From an uncultured Bacillota bacterium (lineage in GTDB: Bacteria > Bacillota_I > Bacilli_A > Erysipelotrichales > Erysipelotrichaceae): a stretch of DNA of 10,130 bases. This document shows positions 1 to 10,122 of this stretch, piece by piece; position 1 is the stretch's first letter, and every line of letters starts with the position of its first letter. Both the position numbers and the translations under genes were made by a program. The stretch spans positions 1 to 10,130 of the forward strand of contig CAMOMM010000015.1 of NCBI GenBank assembly GCA_946619805.1, in the 5' to 3' direction. The notes beneath the pieces are model-generated. The model was given only the letters and a program-made list of their open reading frames with translations, did no database searches and had not been told where the DNA came from.

Positions 1-512
1 TCGTATTCACTGTCTTCATTATCTCCCAGTCCCTTAACCATTTTCATGAAATGATGTTCATCCAGTCCACGGATCTGAGAGAACTGCGATTTGACGGCAA
101 CAACCGGCATTTCCTCAAACTGTGCCAGAACAATATAGTTTAGTCTTTTATCCAGACGGCGTACGGCATGGTAATCAAAGATGCCCAGCATCCCGATCTT
201 TTCCTTTTTATCCTCAATGTACTGACCGAAAAGCTCCATGGCATTTCCTGTTATTAAGAACACCGTTCCCTTTTCAATCAGTTCTATGATCCTTTCCTTA
301 TATGGTTTAAGTTTCTCCAGAACCAGCAGTTGTTTCGGTTCACTCAAGGATCCCATGCAGATCAGATCAACATCTTCATTAACAAACCACGGTGTTTCAT
401 CCAGTGCCGTTTCTCTGAAAACAGCATCATTACAGCACTGCCTGAACAGAAGCATGTTGCCGCCATCACCGTACAGGGTGGTCACTTCAGGATACAGAAT
501 TTCCCGCTTCAT
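1..512 (-). CDS. GatD-like glutamine amidotransferase domain protein lacking the nucleophilic Cys (3' part outside window)
   Basis: The first 170 codons are visible; the stop lies beyond the window edge. The ATG (512-510) comes one base after the TAG of the MurT-like gene, so translation is probably coupled. The protein resembles GatD, the class I amidotransferase subunit that supplies ammonia to MurT for amidating D-Glu of lipid II. Recognisable parts are LYGDGGN near residue 13 (GatD: LYSDIGN), GSLSEPKQ near 56 (GatD: GGGSDREQ), LGIFDY near 110 and GLGDNED near 161 (GatD: GYGNNDED). At the nucleophile elbow, where S. aureus GatD reads ICGGYQFLG, this protein reads TGNAMELFG (residues about 89-97), so Cys94 aligns with Gly. 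There is no Cys nearby, and GGA differs from either Cys codon by two bases. The FENHGG motif is also gone. The region of His189 is outside the window. Membership of the GatD-like group is fairly sure; glutaminase activity is unlikely. Confidence 0.8.
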   Translation of the reverse strand, partial: MKREILYPEVTTLYGDGGNMLLFRQCCNDAVFRETALDETPWFVNEDVDLICMGSLSEPKQLLVLEKLKPYKERIIELIEKGTVFLITGNAMELFGQYIEDKKEKIGMLGIFDYHAVRRLDKRLNYIVLAQFEEMPVVAVKSQFSQIRGLDEHHFMKMVKGLGDNEDSEY

Positions 513-513
513 T

Positions 514-1884
514 CTACGCACCCCTTTCCATAACATTCTCTCTGATGACGTCAATGATATGGTCTCTCATCGCAATGGAGTAAGTTACGTCATGGAGAAT
601 GATATATTTGTCCACATCATTAAAGCTGATCAGCGGATCGATTTCTTCGATTTTTTCCGCAATCGCTATTCTTTCCGGTTTTACCCCGGCCAATAACATT
701 CTTATCTTATGTTCCCTGCATCTCTGCCCGATCACGATTATGTGCTTTATCGAATCATCATTCAGGAACTGATAATCCGTACTGTAGAGATAAGGGGTCG
801 CTTCAATGCGGTAATCTTCCTTTACCAGTTCATCATATAACATGATGACTGCTTTATTACCCGGCTCCCTGCCGGCATATTCCATGGTCGTGCTCATGGC
901 TGTCGGATTCTGCCGCTTGCTGCAGAGATCATGGATCTGTACACCGTTTATCTCAACTGTTCTGTCGCGGTTTTCCGGTAATTTTGCCTGTTTCAGCAGA
1001 CCGGCTATCTGCTCAGGCTGATATCCCAGCTGTCTGAACAGAGTTATGACTGCCGTTTCGTTGTATACATTGAACAGCGCATTACTTAGAACAGGGTATT
1101 CGTTTTTCTGCTTTCCTTCCCGGACAACCAGGGAGTTCTCTCTGATTTCCTCAACAAAAACGTTTCTTTCAGGAGATCTGTATCCGCACTTCGGACAGTA
1201 GAATTCTCCGAAATGACGGTAATTTCTGTATTTGTATACCGGTGTGCCCCCGCATTTCGGACAGACCGGGAAATCATTGGTCAGGTAATGCTGATCCTTC
1301 TGTCCCTGATCGGCTATTCCGAAGAATACTCTCTTACTGTTTTCTCCAATACCGCAGCAGATCGGGTCATCCCCGTTGATGATCAGAACGGTGTCTTTGT
1401 ATCTGTCGCATCCTTCAATGATGCGCTGGGAAACATAGTCCGGATTGCCATTGCGGTGCAGGGAATCCGTAGCCAGATTATTGATGATCAGATACTGAGG
1501 CTTTACCATTTCCAGCATGTAGGCAATGGTTATCTCATCCATTTCCACTACTGCCACATCCTTGGTGGTTCTGTTGAAAATGTCTGTTGCACCTAAGAAC
1601 AGACGGGCATAACCGGCATTGTCATTAGCTCCCCAGCTGTTATAAGCCACACTGTATCCCTGAGCTTCAAACATGTCGGCAATTATCTTGGTAATGGAGG
1701 TCTTTCCATTGGTACCTGTTACTGCCACCACGATTTTCGGTTTGGCAACATACCTTACAAAGTCAAAAAAGAGTCGCATGGACCGCATGCCCGGTCTGTC
1801 ATCATTGACTCTTCCTTTTCTTATGTAGTACCACAGTACCAGCTTCCCAGCCCACAGGCTGAGGAAAAACCTGAGTTTCTTCAT
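514..1884 (-). CDS. MurT-like Mur ligase (DUF1727-type C-terminal domain), divergent
   Basis: This 456-residue protein has the layout of MurT, the ATP-dependent Mur ligase subunit that pairs with GatD to convert lipid II D-glutamate to D-isoglutamine. Visible features are a hydrophobic basic N-terminus (5-22), the P-loop GTNGKT (57-62), EMDE (115-118; MurT EIDE), NGDDP (170-174), and a four-Cys zinc ribbon inserted in the middle domain (C208, C211, C230, C233), which is a MurT hallmark. The C-terminal domain contains NPTA (326-329) where MurT has NPAG, and IIVIGQR (382-388). The Asp that S. aureus MurT contributes to the GatD triad (D349 in RDTSWIYD) aligns with Ala362 in EATPYLYS, anchored without gaps from the downstream IIV strand, although there is a short insertion just before it. 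Spacing to the upstream gene is 16 bases, with GAAAGG as Shine-Dalgarno. ATP binding looks intact; canonical glutamine-dependent amidation is doubtful. Confidence 0.85.
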   Translation of the reverse strand: MKKLRFFLSLWAGKLVLWYYIRKGRVNDDRPGMRSMRLFFDFVRYVAKPKIVVAVTGTNGKTSITKIIADMFEAQGYSVAYNSWGANDNAGYARLFLGATDIFNRTTKDVAVVEMDEITIAYMLEMVKPQYLIINNLATDSLHRNGNPDYVSQRIIEGCDRYKDTVLIINGDDPICCGIGENSKRVFFGIADQGQKDQHYLTNDFPVCPKCGGTPVYKYRNYRHFGEFYCPKCGYRSPERNVFVEEIRENSLVVREGKQKNEYPVLSNALFNVYNETAVITLFRQLGYQPEQIAGLLKQAKLPENRDRTVEINGVQIHDLCSKRQNPTAMSTTMEYAGREPGNKAVIMLYDELVKEDYRIEATPYLYSTDYQFLNDDSIKHIIVIGQRCREHKIRMLLAGVKPERIAIAEKIEEIDPLISFNDVDKYIILHDVTYSIAMRDHIIDVIRENVMERGA

Positions 1885-1900: not shown

Positions 1901-2239
1901 CTATCCGACGATGTCTACATCGATCGGCTTATCCATTTCCTTTTCTCTCTTGGCGGCTGCTTCCGCTTCCTTCTTCCGCTCAATGTCAGCGATCTTTTTC
2001 TGCAGCTCAGCTACCTTGCGTTCATTTTCTTCCTTGATCTTTTTGTTTTTCTCTCTGTTCTTCTTGGCTTCATGGAATTCAAAGGTGACCAGCAGAACAA
2101 ACAGAATGATCATGACGATCAGAATAGCTGTGATTTTCATCGGTACTCTGACTGTCGCATTGAGCTGAATGACAAAGATCAGTTCAATTACAGATAAGGC
2201 AAACAGAGCTACTTCCATCAGAATCTGTAAGAATTTCAT
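1901..2239 (-). CDS. Small membrane protein with two TM helices and a charged coiled-coil tail
   Basis: I do not recognise this 112-residue protein. It starts with a short N-terminus and a hydrophobic helix (about 3-25), then a short loop containing one Arg and a second helix (about 33-54). A very charged Lys/Glu-rich segment follows (about 55-103), with alanine and leucine spacing typical of a coiled coil, and the tail ends in IDVDIVG. The two helices form a hairpin; I infer that both termini, including the coiled coil, face the cytoplasm because the tail is so Lys-rich. The start is well supported by a near-perfect Shine-Dalgarno. It sits 15 bases after mutS and 16 bases before the MurT-like gene, so it is probably cotranscribed with both. 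A scaffold or partner for the cell-wall pair is possible, but nothing in the sequence shows it. The coding call is fairly sure; the function is unknown. Confidence 0.8.
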   Translation of the reverse strand: MKFLQILMEVALFALSVIELIFVIQLNATVRVPMKITAILIVMIILFVLLVTFEFHEAKKNREKNKKIKEENERKVAELQKKIADIERKKEAEAAAKREKEMDKPIDVDIVG

Positions 2240-2254: not shown

Positions 2255-4768
2255 TTATTTAGTGTTTTTCTTTTTGAGCATGTCAACAAACTGCAGGGCC
2301 TCGATCGGCGTCATGTTATCAGGCTGTACCTGATTCAGCAGTTCTTCTATTTCCTTTAGATGCTTTGGAACCGTTTCGACCATAACCATCTGGGTCTGGT
2401 CATTACGGTGTTTCTTGCTTTCTTCAAAAACCTTCAGCAGTTCCCCGGCACGGTCTATTACCGGCTGAGGTAACTTAGCCAGGGAAGCCACGTGGATACC
2501 GTAGGACTTATTGGCCCTGCCGTCCTTTACCTTATAAAGGAAAGTGATCTTATCATCTTCTTCATAAACATCAACGTGCTTGTTTCTGATCCCGTTCATG
2601 CTGTTCTCCAGTGAAGTCAGTTCATGATAGTGGGTAGAGAACATGGTTTTGGCACCGATGGTGACATCTATGAATTCCAGCATGCTCTGAGCCAGAGCCA
2701 TGCCATCATAAGTAGAAGTTCCTCTGCCTATTTCGTCAAAGATGATCAGTGAATCCCTGGTGGCATTCTTCAGAGCATTATTGGCTTCCGTCATTTCAAC
2801 CATGAAAGTTGACTGACCGGCCAGAATGTCATCAGTTGAGCCTATTCTGGTATATATGGCATCAAATATCGGCAGGCTGGCTTTCCTGGCCGGGACATAG
2901 CATCCCATCTGTGCCAGTATGACCAGCAATGCGCATTGTCTCATGTAAGTACTCTTACCGCCCATGTTAGGTCCGGTAATGATCTGGATCGGATAACGGT
3001 CATCCATGTGGATGTCATTAGGTACATATTGAGTCGTACCCACTTTTTCCAGAATAGGATGCCTTCCTTCCTTTATGTCAAGTACTCTGTCATCATTGAA
3101 TGTCGGCCTGATATAGCCGTTATTGCTGCTGACCTCACTTAACGCAAAGTTGGCATCAATGACAGCCAGAGCAATTGCCAGTTTCTGCAGGGAAGCAAGA
3201 TATCCCTTAATAAAGGCTATAAGTTCATCAAACAGTTCGCTTTCCAGTCTGATGGCTCTTTCTTCAGCATGCAGAATGGCATCTTCCTTCTCCTTCAGCT
3301 GCTCGGTAATGTATCTTTCCCCGGTTGTAAGGGTCTGCTTGCGCTGATAGCCCCATTCTTCCTTAACCTGGGAAACCATTCCCTTTGACACTTCGATATA
3401 ATAGCCGAAAACCTTGTTATAACCGACCTTAAGTGTCTTGATGCCGGTTCTTTCTCTTTCGCTCTGCTCCAGGGAAACGATCCATTTCTGCCCGTCTTTC
3501 TGAGCGTTACGCAGTTCGTCAAGCTGTTCATTATAGCCGTCACAGAAGATACCGCCCTGATGAGTAGAGATCGGAGGATCTTCAACAATGCAGTTCTGCA
3601 GTTTTTCCCTTAACTCATCACAGGCATCAAGTTCATCGTATTCAGGATAAACCCCGGCCTTTCTGATCAGTCTGAGTATTTCCGGAACAGCGTCCAGTGT
3701 CTTCTGCAGTCGCAGGATATCTCTTCCGTTGGCGTTGCCATAGGAGACGCGGGCAATCAGTCTCTCCAGATCATATAATTCACTGAGTTTTTCCTTCAGG
3801 TCTTCTCTTTCAATGTAATGTTTCTTCAGGTACCCGATCATATCCAGTCTCTGCGTGATCCTGCCCAGATCTCTTAACGGTTTCTGTACCCATTTCTTTA
3901 ACTGTCTGGAACCTGCGGCACTGCGGCATTTATCCAGAAAACTCCATAAGGTTATGGCTTTACTGTTGGTACGGCTGGCATCAGTAAGTTCCAGATTCTG
4001 CATGGTGGAATAATCCATCGTCATGTAGCTCAGACTGTCTTCCAGATCAAAGCGGTCAATGTACTGCATACCTCTTTTCTGGGTTGCTTCCAGATAGTTA
4101 AGCAGACGGCCGATGGCCTTTAACAGATGGACATCTTCAATATGTTCATACAGATGCCTGTAATCAGGCAGCAGGGCAGTATCGTCACAGACAGATACCG
4201 TGACAAAGTTCTTTATTGAAGCTGCCTTGAAATCTGCGGCAGTTACCACTTCTCTGATATCATTGGCCAGGATGGTCTGCTTCAGCAGATTTATGTCATG
4301 CCCTATATCAAGCAGACGGCTTTCCCCGGTCGTTATTTCCGTTATGGCCAGACTGTAGCCGTAATCATAATCGCATAAGGCGGCCAGATAGTTATTGGCC
4401 TTTTCGTCCATGATCTCATCAATGGCCGTACCCGGGGTTACTACCCTTATTACATCTCTTTTGACAATGACGCCTTCCTTATTGGCCGGATCCTCCAGCT
4501 GTTCCACGATCGCCACTTTATAGCCTTTGGCGATCAGTCGCTGAATATAGCTTTTAACGGCGTGATGAGGAACCCCGCACATAGGGACTCTTTCTTCCAC
4601 ACCGGCATTTCTTCCGGTAAGTACAAGATCAAGTTCATGGGCTGCAGTTTTGGCATCCTCAAAGAACATTTCATAGAAATCCCCCAGACGATAAAAGACA
4701 AGCGTATCAGGATACGCTTTCTTTATTTCCAGGTAATGTGTCATCATCGGGGTATACTGTGTTGTCAT
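2255..4768 (-). CDS. mutS: DNA mismatch repair protein MutS
   Basis: MutS recognises mismatches and small loops in newly replicated DNA and, driven by ATP, recruits MutL. The 837 residues are close to the usual length (853 in E. coli). The N-terminal mismatch-binding domain has the Phe-x-Glu reader in GDFYEMF (F31, E33). The C-terminal ABC-type ATPase has Walker A GPNMGGKST (599-607), the signature GQSTFMVEMTEA, Walker B IIFDE (D678, E679) followed by IGRGTSTYDG, and the STHYHEL switch near residue 710. IDRAGELL and a final MTPIEAL segment complete the family pattern. The ATG is four bases after the stop of the upstream PTS-like gene, and the Shine-Dalgarno is weak (GAAG), so translational coupling is likely. 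No mutL follows: the next genes are a small membrane protein and a MurT-like gene, unlike the common mutS-mutL order. All catalytic motifs look intact. Confidence 0.98.
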   Translation of the reverse strand: MTTQYTPMMTHYLEIKKAYPDTLVFYRLGDFYEMFFEDAKTAAHELDLVLTGRNAGVEERVPMCGVPHHAVKSYIQRLIAKGYKVAIVEQLEDPANKEGVIVKRDVIRVVTPGTAIDEIMDEKANNYLAALCDYDYGYSLAITEITTGESRLLDIGHDINLLKQTILANDIREVVTAADFKAASIKNFVTVSVCDDTALLPDYRHLYEHIEDVHLLKAIGRLLNYLEATQKRGMQYIDRFDLEDSLSYMTMDYSTMQNLELTDASRTNSKAITLWSFLDKCRSAAGSRQLKKWVQKPLRDLGRITQRLDMIGYLKKHYIEREDLKEKLSELYDLERLIARVSYGNANGRDILRLQKTLDAVPEILRLIRKAGVYPEYDELDACDELREKLQNCIVEDPPISTHQGGIFCDGYNEQLDELRNAQKDGQKWIVSLEQSERERTGIKTLKVGYNKVFGYYIEVSKGMVSQVKEEWGYQRKQTLTTGERYITEQLKEKEDAILHAEERAIRLESELFDELIAFIKGYLASLQKLAIALAVIDANFALSEVSSNNGYIRPTFNDDRVLDIKEGRHPILEKVGTTQYVPNDIHMDDRYPIQIITGPNMGGKSTYMRQCALLVILAQMGCYVPARKASLPIFDAIYTRIGSTDDILAGQSTFMVEMTEANNALKNATRDSLIIFDEIGRGTSTYDGMALAQSMLEFIDVTIGAKTMFSTHYHELTSLENSMNGIRNKHVDVYEEDDKITFLYKVKDGRANKSYGIHVASLAKLPQPVIDRAGELLKVFEESKKHRNDQTQMVMVETVPKHLKEIEELLNQVQPDNMTPIEALQFVDMLKKKNTK

Positions 4769-4772
4769 TTTT

Positions 4773-6296
4773 TTACTTCGCTTCTAAATACTTCTTTACT
4801 CCATTGTATTCCCTTATTTCTTTCTTAAGCTTGCGGGCTATTCTTACACTGCCCGGGCCAAAGAAAAGACGGTGATAGTAGAACGACTCTGTCACCTTAA
4901 AGGCTCCTAAATCAATTAACGGCTGTGCCTTGATACGTGAGATATCATAAACAGCTACCGACATGCTTAACGGTGAACCATCTGCAATTCTGAGATTGCC
5001 GATACCGCCCAGAGCCTTGATAAGCTCTTTGCGGTTTCTGTCTCCTTCTTTTCCTTCCAGGAAATCAATGGCCAGTACGCCATAGTATAACCAGACAAAG
5101 GCAAAGTAAACAACGGCATATCCTGCTCCTATCAGCAGAATGTTCTTCAGACTGTTGGCACTGAGCATGCCGCTCATTTTAATAAATTCAACGATGGTCC
5201 CAGGAATCGCAAAGGCCAGAGCCCCGTTATAGAAATATCCCAGATAGATCTCCAGAATGGCGAATACCATGTACAGTGAACTTGACAGCAGGATATGGAT
5301 CACCAGCAGTAACGGTGAAATAAACAGCAGAAGGATCTGTACGGGAACCAGACTGCTGGAAGTCATTGATACCGCAATGGCAACTATGGTCAGCCCCAGA
5401 TATCTTCTTCTTTCAATCTTGCTGGAGAACTGGCAGTAAATGCCTATCAGCAAGGCAGGAATGATGAATATATTAATGATGTAATAAGGAGTAATATACT
5501 TACCTACACCAAGTTCAACCATTCCCCTGGTAAGCTGAGCAGTCCAGACTCCGACATCGCCCATGTGTACAGTCCCTGTGCCATCCATCCAGTTTCCGCC
5601 GAAATTCCCGATCCAGAAACCGTTATGCAGTACATCTTCCAGGCCAAACAGCTCCAGAACTCTTTCGATCAGTCCATATACATAAAGTGCACCTGGATTG
5701 GCTGAGTTGTGTGATATGAAAGTCATGATCCTGGTCAGTCCGTTTACCGCAAATGGGAATACCAGAGAAATGGCGATCCCTGCGGCAATGGTTGCCAGGG
5801 CACTGGTGATCAGAAACCAGCTGTCATTGTCTATGAAAGTCAGAATTCCATAGTTAAATCTCTGTCTTGAAAGACGGTAGGTAAATATAACGATGAATAT
5901 GACGATGACACTGGCAACAAAACCCATGTTCAGCGGCCGGCGACTGCTGCCTTCGACACCTCTTAATAAACCGGTACCAAGACTGGTGTAATAACAGCTG
6001 TCAAAATCCTGTCTGGCCATGAACATGGTGACCAGATGAATAAGACCGTAACTGATTACGGCTCCTACAACCGGAATACTGTCCTCGTGGATCTTTCCTA
6101 TGATACTGATTGTTACCAGCAATGGGAAAAGGGTCTTTACCAGACCTCCCGCATACTGAAAAGCCACTAATATCGTCGCAAGGATTTCATTAGTGGACGT
6201 AAAGATATTAGGAATCGCCAGCAGAATCATGGCTATCAGGTACATTACTAACGGCCCTTTAATGCTTTCGTAAGTTGAATACCATATTTTCTTCAT
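4773..6296 (-). CDS. PTS EIIC-EIIB-like membrane protein of the glucose family with degenerate active sites
   Basis: This 507-residue protein has about ten hydrophobic segments between residues 15 and 410, then a soluble domain (about 420-507). The membrane part follows the glucose/maltose EIIC pattern, for example GALYVYGLIERVLELFGL (202-219) and ISPLLLVIHILL (326-337). The tail follows EIIB: ELIKALGG (424-431), GAFKV, and FFGPGSVRIARKLKKEI (478-494). The residues that define a working PTS permease are missing. The EIIB phosphocysteine motif (DACITRLR) reads DGSPLSMS, giving Ser441 for Cys. The EIIC GITEPIEF motif reads SSLVPVQI (314-321). The His-His of GLHHVLN reads Glu220-Asp221. A ribosome binding site (AAAGGA, six bases upstream) and an unbroken frame argue against decay. 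It cannot phosphorylate sugar by the known PTS route. It may be a PTS-independent transporter, a membrane sensor or a scaffold; the substrate is unknown. Confidence 0.8.
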   Translation of the reverse strand: MKKIWYSTYESIKGPLVMYLIAMILLAIPNIFTSTNEILATILVAFQYAGGLVKTLFPLLVTISIIGKIHEDSIPVVGAVISYGLIHLVTMFMARQDFDSCYYTSLGTGLLRGVEGSSRRPLNMGFVASVIVIFIVIFTYRLSRQRFNYGILTFIDNDSWFLITSALATIAAGIAISLVFPFAVNGLTRIMTFISHNSANPGALYVYGLIERVLELFGLEDVLHNGFWIGNFGGNWMDGTGTVHMGDVGVWTAQLTRGMVELGVGKYITPYYIINIFIIPALLIGIYCQFSSKIERRRYLGLTIVAIAVSMTSSSLVPVQILLLFISPLLLVIHILLSSSLYMVFAILEIYLGYFYNGALAFAIPGTIVEFIKMSGMLSANSLKNILLIGAGYAVVYFAFVWLYYGVLAIDFLEGKEGDRNRKELIKALGGIGNLRIADGSPLSMSVAVYDISRIKAQPLIDLGAFKVTESFYYHRLFFGPGSVRIARKLKKEIREYNGVKKYLEAK

Positions 6297-6308: not shown

Positions 6309-7091
6309 CTAAAACAGATTGGAGAGATTCCTCATGAACTGCACCGGTTCATAATGTGCTATTCCAAATGTCACATCTGACAGAGAAACAGCAACCGTAT
6401 CTGCTCCTTTTAGATTAATCGCATATCGGTCAAAACACAAGAGCGATGTTTCAACGTAATTGCTTTTCATGACAATGGTGTTATTTCCACTCAACACCAG
6501 CGGTGCTCCCAGAGAACGGTAATGAGCATGGTGGATTCCTGCAACTTCAACCAGCTGCAGCACTTCCAGCCCTCTCTCGATGACCGCTCCTTTCAGGGCT
6601 CTGTTATAGGCTGTAGAACCGGCCTGTGAACTGACACTTAAGCCGGAACCGCGGAAGGTTTCCAGTTTTTCATCGTTGATGTAAACATCAATGGTTTGAG
6701 TCTTCAGCATGTTTTCCACTCTGATCTCATTGATGCCAAGATAGCTCTTACGGCCTTTCTCACTGATAACATCAGCCTGCAGCAGTCTTCTTCTTTCAAT
6801 TTCCGGTTCCTTATTCAATATGTCATCAATGAACCTGTCGAGCTGATCAACGGTATAATCAATGAAAAAACCAAGAGTACCGGTATTAATGCCAGCAAAG
6901 GCGACACTGTCCAGCTGGTTAATGTACTTGTGAACAGCTGTCAGAAAAGCCCCGTCGCCACCGACAACACAGACAATGTCCGGCTGTTTTTCCGAATAGC
7001 TCATTGCTCCGTTAAAAAGTCTTCTCTGGATGTCCTTGGCTATTAATAACGATTCTCTGTCGTCTCTGGCTACTATCGAAAACTTTTTCAT
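6309..7091 (-). CDS. nadK: NAD kinase (PpnK/NadK family)
   Basis: It phosphorylates the 2'-hydroxyl of the NAD adenosine ribose to make NADP, in the cytosol. With the ATG start the protein has 260 residues, usual for Bacillota. It shows VVGGDG (42-47) with the catalytic Asp46, GINTGTLGF (68-76), the NE pair (121-122) and the glycine-rich GSTAYN (158-163). I prefer the ATG at 7091 to the in-frame GTG at 7100 because the AGGA Shine-Dalgarno abuts the GTG (one base) but sits ten bases from the ATG. Two motifs are unusual: the family FRGDG reads FRGSG (Ser149), and the following VSTPTGSTAY reads VSSQAGSTAY; GG after YNKSL reads KG. It is the first gene of the minus-strand operon, 12 bases before the PTS-like gene, and is divergent from the CYTH gene. 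B. subtilis also has its NAD kinase gene (yjbN) near a CYTH gene (yjbK). Confidence 0.93.
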   Translation of the reverse strand: MKKFSIVARDDRESLLIAKDIQRRLFNGAMSYSEKQPDIVCVVGGDGAFLTAVHKYINQLDSVAFAGINTGTLGFFIDYTVDQLDRFIDDILNKEPEIERRRLLQADVISEKGRKSYLGINEIRVENMLKTQTIDVYINDEKLETFRGSGLSVSSQAGSTAYNRALKGAVIERGLEVLQLVEVAGIHHAHYRSLGAPLVLSGNNTIVMKSNYVETSLLCFDRYAINLKGADTVAVSLSDVTFGIAHYEPVQFMRNLSNLF

Positions 7092-7112
7092 TCTGTTCAC
7101 ATCCTGTATTAA
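7085..7112 (+). promoter_or_regulatory. Weak candidate promoter for the CYTH operon
   Basis: TTTTCA (7085-7090) and TATTAA (7107-7112), spaced by 16 bases, are the best -35/-10 pair I can find upstream of the plus-strand genes. Both are only four-of-six matches. The element overlaps the start of nadK and lies just beside the opposing -10 at 7115-7120, so the two promoters would compete for polymerase. Confidence 0.25.
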
Positions 7113-7144: not shown

Positions 7145-7693
7145 ATGAATCATGAGGTTGAAACCGAGCTGAAAATGCTGCTGGACCCTGTCCAGATGCA
7201 GCGTTTACTGGCTGGAAAATTCAAAAACATACCGTTTATTCACCAGGCAAATACCTATTACCGCAGCAATAATCACAGCCATTATGCCTTCAGGATCAGA
7301 GAAAGAAACGGGGAAACTCTTTTCACGCTGAAAGAACATCAGGGAGATGATCTGATGGAATATGAGAAGACTTTTACCGGCAATATGGAAGATGATCCTG
7401 AGCTTATGGAACTGCTGGCATCATTTAATGAATACCCGCCTTTTGAAGTACTGGGCCAGCTTAATACCCTGAGAGCTGATCTGGATACCGGTTTAGCAGT
7501 GATAAGTCTGGACATCAACTTCTATAACGGTACTTATGATTATGAAATAGAGTATGAAGTAAAGAAACCGCACGATTACCGTGAAGCTTTCACTGCCTTT
7601 CTGAATGAGCATTCCATTGAATTCAGACAGAACAGGGTTTCAAAATACAGAAGGTTTCTGAAAACCATGAAGGAGGACGATCATGCTGCATAA
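7145..7693 (+). CDS. CYTH domain protein (YjbK-like triphosphate tunnel enzyme family)
   Basis: CYTH proteins form an eight-stranded tunnel that binds triphosphate groups with metal; members include inorganic triphosphatases, thiamine triphosphatases and class IV adenylate cyclases. The 182 residues carry the ExExK signature at the N-terminus (E6, E8, K10), basic tunnel residues in YAFRIRE (R50, R52), TLKE (K63) and EYEK (E72, E74, K75), the acidic strand YDYEIEYEV (131-139), and the closing NRVSKYRRF (163-171). The set is complete, so the protein is probably active. The start has TGAGG eight bases upstream. The end overlaps the metallo-beta-lactamase gene by 11 bases, and that gene's AGGAGG lies inside this frame. 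Inorganic triphosphatase is the most likely activity, as for other Firmicutes CYTH proteins, but the sequence does not settle the substrate. Confidence 0.9.
   Translation: MNHEVETELKMLLDPVQMQRLLAGKFKNIPFIHQANTYYRSNNHSHYAFRIRERNGETLFTLKEHQGDDLMEYEKTFTGNMEDDPELMELLASFNEYPPFEVLGQLNTLRADLDTGLAVISLDINFYNGTYDYEIEYEVKKPHDYREAFTAFLNEHSIEFRQNRVSKYRRFLKTMKEDDHAA
7671..7676 (+). promoter_or_regulatory. Shine-Dalgarno of the metallo-beta-lactamase gene inside the CYTH gene
   Basis: AGGAGG lies six bases before the ATG at 7683 and within the last codons of the CYTH gene. It fixes the start of the downstream gene and implies translational coupling through the 11-base overlap. Confidence 0.85.
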
Positions 7694-8991: not shown

Positions 8992-10122
8992 ATGTATTTC
9001 AGACCGGAAAAGAAACTGGGATTCGGCTTGATGCGCCTTCCGCAGAACAGCAGTAATTCAGCTGACGTTGATGTAGAACAGGTCAAGAAAATGGTCGACC
9101 ATTTTATCGCAAATGGCTTTACCTATTTCGATACTGCCTGGATGTATAATGGCTTCAACAGTGAAAATGTTGCCAAAGAAGCCCTGGTGGACAGATATCC
9201 AAGAGAAAGCTTTACTCTGGCGACCAAACTGCATGCCGGCTTCTTCAATTCTCTGGAAGACAGAGACAAGGTATTTAATGAACAGCTCCGCAAGACCGGA
9301 GCCAGCTACTTTGATTACTATCTGCTGCACGGCATTGAAAAGGGAATGATCGATAAATATGAAGAGTTTGACTGCTTCAACTGGCTTATTGAGAAAAAGA
9401 AACAGGGACTGGTCAGACATATCGGCTTCTCCTTCCATGATTCACCGGAAATGCTGGATAAGATCCTGACTGAGCATCCTGAAATGGAATTCGTGCAGCT
9501 TCAGCTTAACTATCTCGACTGGGAAAGTCCATGGATACAGGCCAGAAGAAACTATGAAGTAACCTGCAAGCATCAGAAACCGGTCATTGTAATGGAGCCT
9601 GTAAAAGGAGGTACCCTGGCCCGTATTCCTGAAGAAGCCGAAAAGATCTTCAGGGATTACAATCCGAACATGTCCATTCCAAGCTGGGCCATCAGATTCG
9701 CAGCCTCGCTTCCTAATGTAATGGTCGTCCTTTCCGGCATGAGCAACATGGAACAGATGATCGACAATACCTCATACATGAATGAGTTCCAGGTAATTAC
9801 CTTTAAGGAAAGACTGATGTGCTTCGATGTAGCCAACATCATCAACAGTCAGATAGCCATACCTTGTACCGCTTGTCACTACTGTACGGAAGGATGTCCT
9901 ATGAACATCTGCATTCCGGAATATTTCTCCCTGTATAATGAAGACATGCGTGAACATCTGGAAGAAAAAGGCTGGACGATCAACTTCTCCAACTATGACA
10001 ACCTGACAGTTACCAGAGGAAAAGCCAGCGACTGTATCCAGTGCGGCCAGTGTGAAGGAGTCTGTCCGCAGCATCTGACCATTATTGATTATCTGCAGAA
10101 AGTTGCTGAACATTTCGAATAA
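8992..10122 (+). CDS. Aldo/keto reductase with C-terminal 2[4Fe-4S] ferredoxin-like domain
   Basis: The 376-residue protein has an N-terminal (beta/alpha)8 aldo/keto reductase domain with an intact tetrad: D47 and Y52 in FDTAWMY, K79 in ATKL, and H113 in LLHG. After about residue 285 comes a ferredoxin-like tail with two CxxCxxCxxxCP motifs: C292, C295, C298, C302 and C348, C351, C354, C358, each suited to one [4Fe-4S] cluster. The two motifs are 45 residues apart, with a helical insert between them, so they are not an adjacent ferredoxin repeat. This architecture is common in anaerobic Bacillota and suggests a cytosolic NAD(P)H- or ferredoxin-linked reductase; the substrate is unknown. The gene has its own likely promoter, a clear AGAGGG site, and follows the terminator, so it is transcribed apart from the Nudix operon. 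The frame is complete, ending eight bases before the window edge. Confidence 0.93.
   Translation: MYFRPEKKLGFGLMRLPQNSSNSADVDVEQVKKMVDHFIANGFTYFDTAWMYNGFNSENVAKEALVDRYPRESFTLATKLHAGFFNSLEDRDKVFNEQLRKTGASYFDYYLLHGIEKGMIDKYEEFDCFNWLIEKKKQGLVRHIGFSFHDSPEMLDKILTEHPEMEFVQLQLNYLDWESPWIQARRNYEVTCKHQKPVIVMEPVKGGTLARIPEEAEKIFRDYNPNMSIPSWAIRFAASLPNVMVVLSGMSNMEQMIDNTSYMNEFQVITFKERLMCFDVANIINSQIAIPCTACHYCTEGCPMNICIPEYFSLYNEDMREHLEEKGWTINFSNYDNLTVTRGKASDCIQCGQCEGVCPQHLTIIDYLQKVAEHFE

Follow-up and report, generated by a model that had tools for sequence, protein, structure and literature searches.

The window analysed here is one whole contig (G000:C15) of 10,130 bases, from a genome that is 68% complete. 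Its minus strand encodes at positions 4773–6296 a protein of 507 amino acids that is related to the EIICB permeases of the sugar phosphotransferase system (PTS) but lacks their phosphotransfer residues. This protein is here called pseudo-EIICB. An earlier note on this DNA described an open 507-codon frame with a good ribosome binding site, and this is borne out: the frame is open throughout, and AAAGGA lies six nucleotides before the ATG. The gene lies 12 nucleotides behind the stop codon of a NAD kinase gene (nadK, 6309–7100, minus strand) and 4 nucleotides ahead of the start of mutS (2255–4768, minus strand), and all three have the same direction. The predicted structure contains an EIIC fold (residues ~1–408), a short linker (~409–415) and an EIIB fold (~416–496), with both folds in one chain and EIIB last.

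The domain order, a nearly end-to-end alignment and the predicted EIIC and EIIB folds are shared with Escherichia coli PtsG and TIGR02002. PtsG aligns with residues 13–496 of pseudo-EIICB (E = 1.6e-16). The best NCBIfam match is TIGR02002 (glucose IIBC, E = 5e-29), although its curated cut-off is missed (101 bits vs 591.8). The Pfam scan of the window protein gives no match at E ≤ 1. The predicted fold is that of PtsG and of bcMalT, and the model has the EIIC fold of elevator-type EIIC transporters. The identity to bcMalT (5iws), a maltose EIIC, is 17% in the structural comparison. Among the Foldseek and VIA matches listed, none is closer in fold than the EIIC and EIIB entries.

The residues of phosphotransfer were compared by aligning 87 orthologues with 13 true PTS proteins. 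To be included as an orthologue, a sequence from the loci collected had to be distinct and to score 280 bits or more (about 58 remain after clustering at 70%); the fragments L075, L076 and L078, loci added later and L077, in which the copy is split, were left out. For the true PTS set, 12 distinct proteins of this order, scoring 80–138 bits, were joined by E. coli PtsG. The window protein has Ser441 (codon 4974–4976, minus strand) at the EIIB phosphocysteine C421 of PtsG. The GITEP motif is replaced by SSLVP (S314-S315-L316-V317-P318; 5343–5357, minus strand). H211-H212 of PtsG correspond to Glu220-Asp221 (5634–5639, minus strand, as computed from the residue numbers). The EIIB phosphocysteine is kept in all 13 true PTS proteins and in 0/87 orthologues, and the same is true for the GITEP Glu. 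Both His residues of HP1b are present in 13/13 PTS proteins; three orthologues keep H211 and two keep H212, never both together. The anchors flanking the lost sites (P318, F227, G430, and N434) are conserved in 95–100% of weighted orthologues. The earlier claim that the EIIB Cys, the GITE motif and the His-His pair are gone from otherwise alignable segments is therefore confirmed. Pairwise identity among the 87 orthologues goes down to 21%. The absence of Cys and Glu from each of them is not an effect of chance or of sequencing, and chance was rejected as the cause of the loss.

The replacing residues are not uniform. The Cys position is occupied by S (58), T (17), G (7), A (2), N (2), or D (1). 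The position of the GITEP Glu is L, I, V, F, or M in 84 orthologues, and the His positions drift. Screening of the E298, T297, H211, and H212 positions found no new conserved polar residue in the 87 orthologues. The earlier note proposed to look for conservation of Ser441 and the SSLV segment in a clade. The canonical residues are absent throughout the clade, but it does not conserve the Ser441, SSLV and Glu-Asp of the window protein. As in PtsG, the GITEP loop has its Pro (87/87) and mostly its Gly (74/87). A Glu two places past the Pro is seen in 74 orthologues. Three orthologues (L006, L007, and L008) have a Cys one place ahead of the old phosphocysteine position, in IDCTP or VDCSP, which is a near miss for motif scans.

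In the search of 315 genomes of the order, a match at E ≤ 1e-60 was counted as an orthologue. Within the window's own family, 217 of 272 genomes, in 34 of 59 genera, have an orthologue, a count that takes in incomplete or broken copies in G150, G254, G190, and G104. Only fragments below this limit are found in G164 and G196. None of the 43 genomes of the sister family has an orthologue at this limit (best 5.1e-37). With the first family model, full-length orthologues score at least 281 bits, and other full-length matches, which are true PTS proteins, at most 138 bits. Two genomes of the window's genus, G268 and G275, have two matches each to the family model. Samples of 395 genomes of the class and 392 of the phylum, searched with the wider model, contain no orthologue-level score outside the window's family. 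Outsiders that pass the limit score 163–220 bits, against at least 486 bits for unbroken family orthologues and one partly broken copy. The sole outsider sequence read is L160 (G358, 220 bits), in which GISEP, His-His and DAC are all intact. A tree was built from 60 of the 87 orthologues after thinning and 14 true PTS proteins, and in it the orthologues make up one side of a fully supported branch. A scattered origin is thus ruled out, and the scatter among active PTS proteins, which would have spoken against the idea of the earlier note, is not seen.

Among 58 diverse orthologues scanned, 57 match TIGR02002 at E ≤ 0.001, nine match Pfam PTS_EIIC and two match PTS_EIIB; these are matches by E-value, and the bit score set against the cut-off above is that of the window protein. 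A protein-database search returned 22 proteins, of which 20 are at least 45% identical to the window protein and two are 36 and 30% identical. A repeat of the search with wider alignment, in which the 7998 candidates sharing most words were scored, returned the same 22 proteins. Only two of them carry source names (P0012 and P0017), and both are named PTS components. A protein outside the PTS can thus be taken for a sugar PTS by automatic annotation. Among the papers listed in the literature searches, whose reach did not extend to most subscription journals, none describes this family.

The gene is under strong purifying selection, as the dN/dS comparison proposed in the earlier note shows. 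NG86 dN/dS is 0.015–0.12 in 16/16 orthologue pairs, with dS saturated in several, and is 0.056 for the nearest pair of the window gene. As for frameshifts, which the earlier note took as a possible sign of pseudogenisation if frequent, broken copies are seen in at least two genomes, G190 (L159), where the orthologue lies in two frames, and G104 (L158), where its first part is disrupted. Over 55 loci, the identities of orthologues and of MutS are correlated (Pearson 0.75, with 0/2000 permutations as high; Spearman 0.43). The orthologues have a median identity of 0.32, compared with 0.47 for MutS over its first 450 residues. A MutS tree of 55 gene-bearing, 25 gene-less and 11 outgroup rows was rooted on the sister family. 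L197 (G001, sister family), in which mutS lies in two frames, was dropped. Five changes are needed to explain the presence of the gene, and deep branches of the family carry it. The gene looks ancestral at the locus, and the reading adopted is a single gain with about four losses, although this quick tree cannot by itself distinguish gains from losses.

According to PMC11393339, the partners of glucose in PtsG, in structures or simulations, are E202, R203, K257, T297, E298, and N215, and further H211, H212, F337, S338, and G295. The counterparts of E202-R203 are Glu211-Arg212 in the window protein (5661–5666, minus strand), and this pair is a likeness to PtsG across the orthologues (D/E in 84/87, R/K in 81/87). 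Asn275 (5472–5474, minus strand) is at the position of K257, and Asn is found there in 85/87. The N215 position is R in 62 orthologues and H in 16. Among the 13 true PTS proteins, the K257 position is M in 12 and the E202 position is K or M in eight, indicating that these places vary in working PTS too. Five contact places on the ring side have a mean entropy of 0.84 bits vs 2.13 for the whole EIIC, and the fraction of random draws as low is 0.00085, for a grouping of contacts made after the columns were seen. The four contact places on the OH-6 side have a mean entropy of 2.47 (fraction 0.78). N275, Y272, W251, R/K144, P121, E470, and S483 are conserved in the orthologues and not in the PTS set. 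The alignment shows conserved, remodelled polar residues along one side of the former sugar pocket. The comparison with bcMalT proposed in the earlier note gives the same fold, and the comparison with the PtsG contacts gives a pocket that is partly conserved and remodelled.

The junction between EIIC and EIIB, from Y404 to G430 (5007–5087, minus strand), is fixed in length. It is 26 residues long in 86 orthologues and 25 in one, while it is 35 in PtsG and 35–53 in the 13 true PTS proteins. Pseudo-EIICB does not have a long flexible EIIC-EIIB linker. The control model of a true EIIBC has pLDDT below 50 at residues 406–416, and no such segment is present in the pseudo-EIICB model; the alignment depths of these models differ (12 and 58 rows). 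The frozen junction suggests that EIIB may no longer swing between EIIA and EIIC. The tip of the gate hairpin HP2 is also different from that of PtsG. This stretch (residues 354–367, ending in AIPGT; 5196–5237, minus strand) is longer than in true PTS: from 353 to 368, there are 15–18 residues in 86 orthologues and 23 in one, vs 7–8 in 13/13 PTS proteins. The gate hairpin is thus about eight residues longer in the orthologues. The names HP1b and HP2 follow PMC11393339 and PMC12900739, and the HP2-tip placement rests on the position at F337-S338. The short fixed junction and the longer hairpin point away from phosphotransfer.

The neighbourhood was counted in 67 loci of at least 7 kb, some of which were fetched twice or cut by contig ends. 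The recurrent locus is composed of nadK, a RodA-like gene, the pseudo-EIICB gene, mutS, mutL, and miaA. nadK-like genes are found within four genes upstream of the orthologue in 50 loci. A divergent RodA/FtsW-like gene is at −1 or −2 in 33 loci (e.g., L130:5482–6705). mutS is at +1 in 33 loci; at least 46 have it somewhere between +1 and +7, and mutL and miaA then follow in many. Of 28 gene-less genomes queried for mutS, three gave none. In the 25 mutS loci of the others, the RodA-like gene is directly beside mutS in 15, and one more has an open reading frame (ORF) of 147 amino acids between them. In 37 mutS loci from gene-less genomes and the sister family, with about 1.5 kb on each side, no ORF matches the family model at E ≤ 10. 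The adjacency of the RodA-like gene and mutS in gene-less genomes makes the link of pseudo-EIICB with NAD kinase and MutS, described in the earlier note as cotranscription, look positional rather than functional, and the idea that the gene forms a functional operon with them was not adopted. The neighbourhood is an old housekeeping locus with little information on function.

Other genes of the window are as follows. A CYTH-domain gene (7145–7693, plus strand) is divergent from nadK and recurs in the neighbourhoods (a cluster of 53 ORFs). Behind mutS, a protein of 112 amino acids (1901–2239, minus strand) has a likely membrane segment, as read from the sequence. A MurT-like gene (514–1884, minus strand) and a gene with a weak match to GATase_3, a glutamine-amidotransferase domain (3–554, minus strand), lie further downstream, and we presume that they are perhaps a MurT-GatD pair. 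An aldo/keto reductase that carries a 4Fe-4S ferredoxin domain at its C-terminus is encoded at 8992–10122 (plus strand).

Taken together, these findings argue strongly against decay, and PTS chemistry is very unlikely. The broken copies in G190 and G104 are what a decaying pseudogene would offer, but the low dN/dS of all 16 pairs and the spread over 217/272 family genomes reject it, and the window frame is open with a constrained nearest pair; its probability is very low. It could also be supposed that PTS chemistry persists via other residues, such as a phosphorylated Ser441. Ser or Thr at the Cys position in 75/87 orthologues and R or K at the R424 position in 57/87 fit this idea, as does enzyme I (EI), which is matched above the cut-off in 293 of the 315 genomes of the order. 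This supposition is nevertheless highly improbable: 12 orthologues have G, A, N, or D in place of the Cys, 30 have a residue other than R or K at the R424 position, no more than three keep R426, and the position of the GITEP Glu is hydrophobic in 84. The list of the 75 most conserved places contains no EIIB His, Cys, or Asp. The wide presence of EI also means that the loss of chemistry is not explained by loss of the PTS. Pseudo-EIICB is very probably conserved and functional without PTS chemistry, which supports the reading in the earlier note of a PTS-derived protein that has left this chemistry behind. The idea that it is a regulatory subunit, which would join true EIIC proteins as a dominant-negative dimer partner and so inhibit or tune them, is unlikely. 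It draws on the same EI matches, on true EIIBC matches beside the orthologue in several of 40 genomes, and on the dimeric EIIC of V. cholerae (PMC12900739). However, the true PTS matches vary in number and kind among these 40 genomes with no constant partner evident, and two gene-bearing drafts (G275 and G256, 83 and 85% complete) have no EI match.

The retained fold, the one conserved side of the pocket and the changed gate favour a solute-handling protein. It is tentatively considered a transporter. The favoured statement as a whole, drawn from sequence and equally tentative, is that pseudo-EIICB could be a phosphorylation-independent elevator-type transporter with a fixed pseudo-EIIB, formerly a glucose-superfamily permease. 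Phosphotransfer might have been lost from a glucose-superfamily PTS permease a single time, in the ancestor of the family or earlier, and the descendant of this permease might have been kept since then for another job. The solute would move as in an elevator-type carrier, independently of phosphorylation, either by a facilitator or by an ion-coupled carrier. It would be bound by the conserved Asp/Glu-Arg pair, Asn at 275, and Arg/His at 224. The EIIB fold would now be a fixed cytoplasmic lid or regulatory domain with no phosphate shuttling. PtsG mutants uncoupled from phosphorylation have reportedly been obtained. They would represent transport without phosphotransfer in the same fold, although they are laboratory point mutants and not a natural family.

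Several observations weigh against a transporter of this type. About four lineage losses and the broken copies in two genomes show the gene to be dispensable. The eleven glucose contacts taken together have a mean entropy of 1.70 and a fraction of only 0.049, and the post hoc split into ring and OH-6 sides weakens the lower fraction given above. The pLDDT of 66 at residues 411–420 means that the docking of EIIB is not established. The control model of a true EIIBC likewise fits 5iws best by root-mean-square deviation, so the state of the pseudo-EIICB model is nothing special, and the claim that it is locked in one state was dropped. Pocket conservation fits a receptor as well. A membrane receptor or transceptor, whose EIIC binds an outside ligand and whose fixed EIIB signals to a cytoplasmic partner, is the main rival and is possible, though less likely than not. 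The unphosphorylated EIIB of PtsG holds the repressor Mlc, and 3bp8, by its title, is presumably the structure of this sequestration. This example of unphosphorylated EIIB as a protein-docking domain bears on the receptor only, and no Mlc-like partner came to light, no search aimed at one having been made. The recurrent neighbours identified are, however, housekeeping genes with no evident signalling partner, and the conservation of the EIIB loop at the old Cys does not exceed that of the remaining EIIB (fraction 0.37). Phosphorylation-independent transport is slightly favoured over sensing.

EIIC proteins are generally viewed as inseparable from phosphotransfer. A clade that has retained the two-domain architecture across a family but not the chemistry allows the EIIC features needed for transport to be told apart, in nature, from those needed for phosphorylation. 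In a family of gut-type bacteria, a descendant of a sugar pump without the residues for sugar phosphorylation is maintained at one chromosomal site under strong selection. It therefore probably has another role, and the likeliest is to move or sense a small molecule with no need for the usual chemistry. There is good reason to suppose that in an entire bacterial family a PTS permease has been repurposed into a transporter or transceptor that is independent of phosphorylation and has EIIB as a fixed lid. If true, this would be a natural lineage whose EIICB architecture left the PTS altogether.
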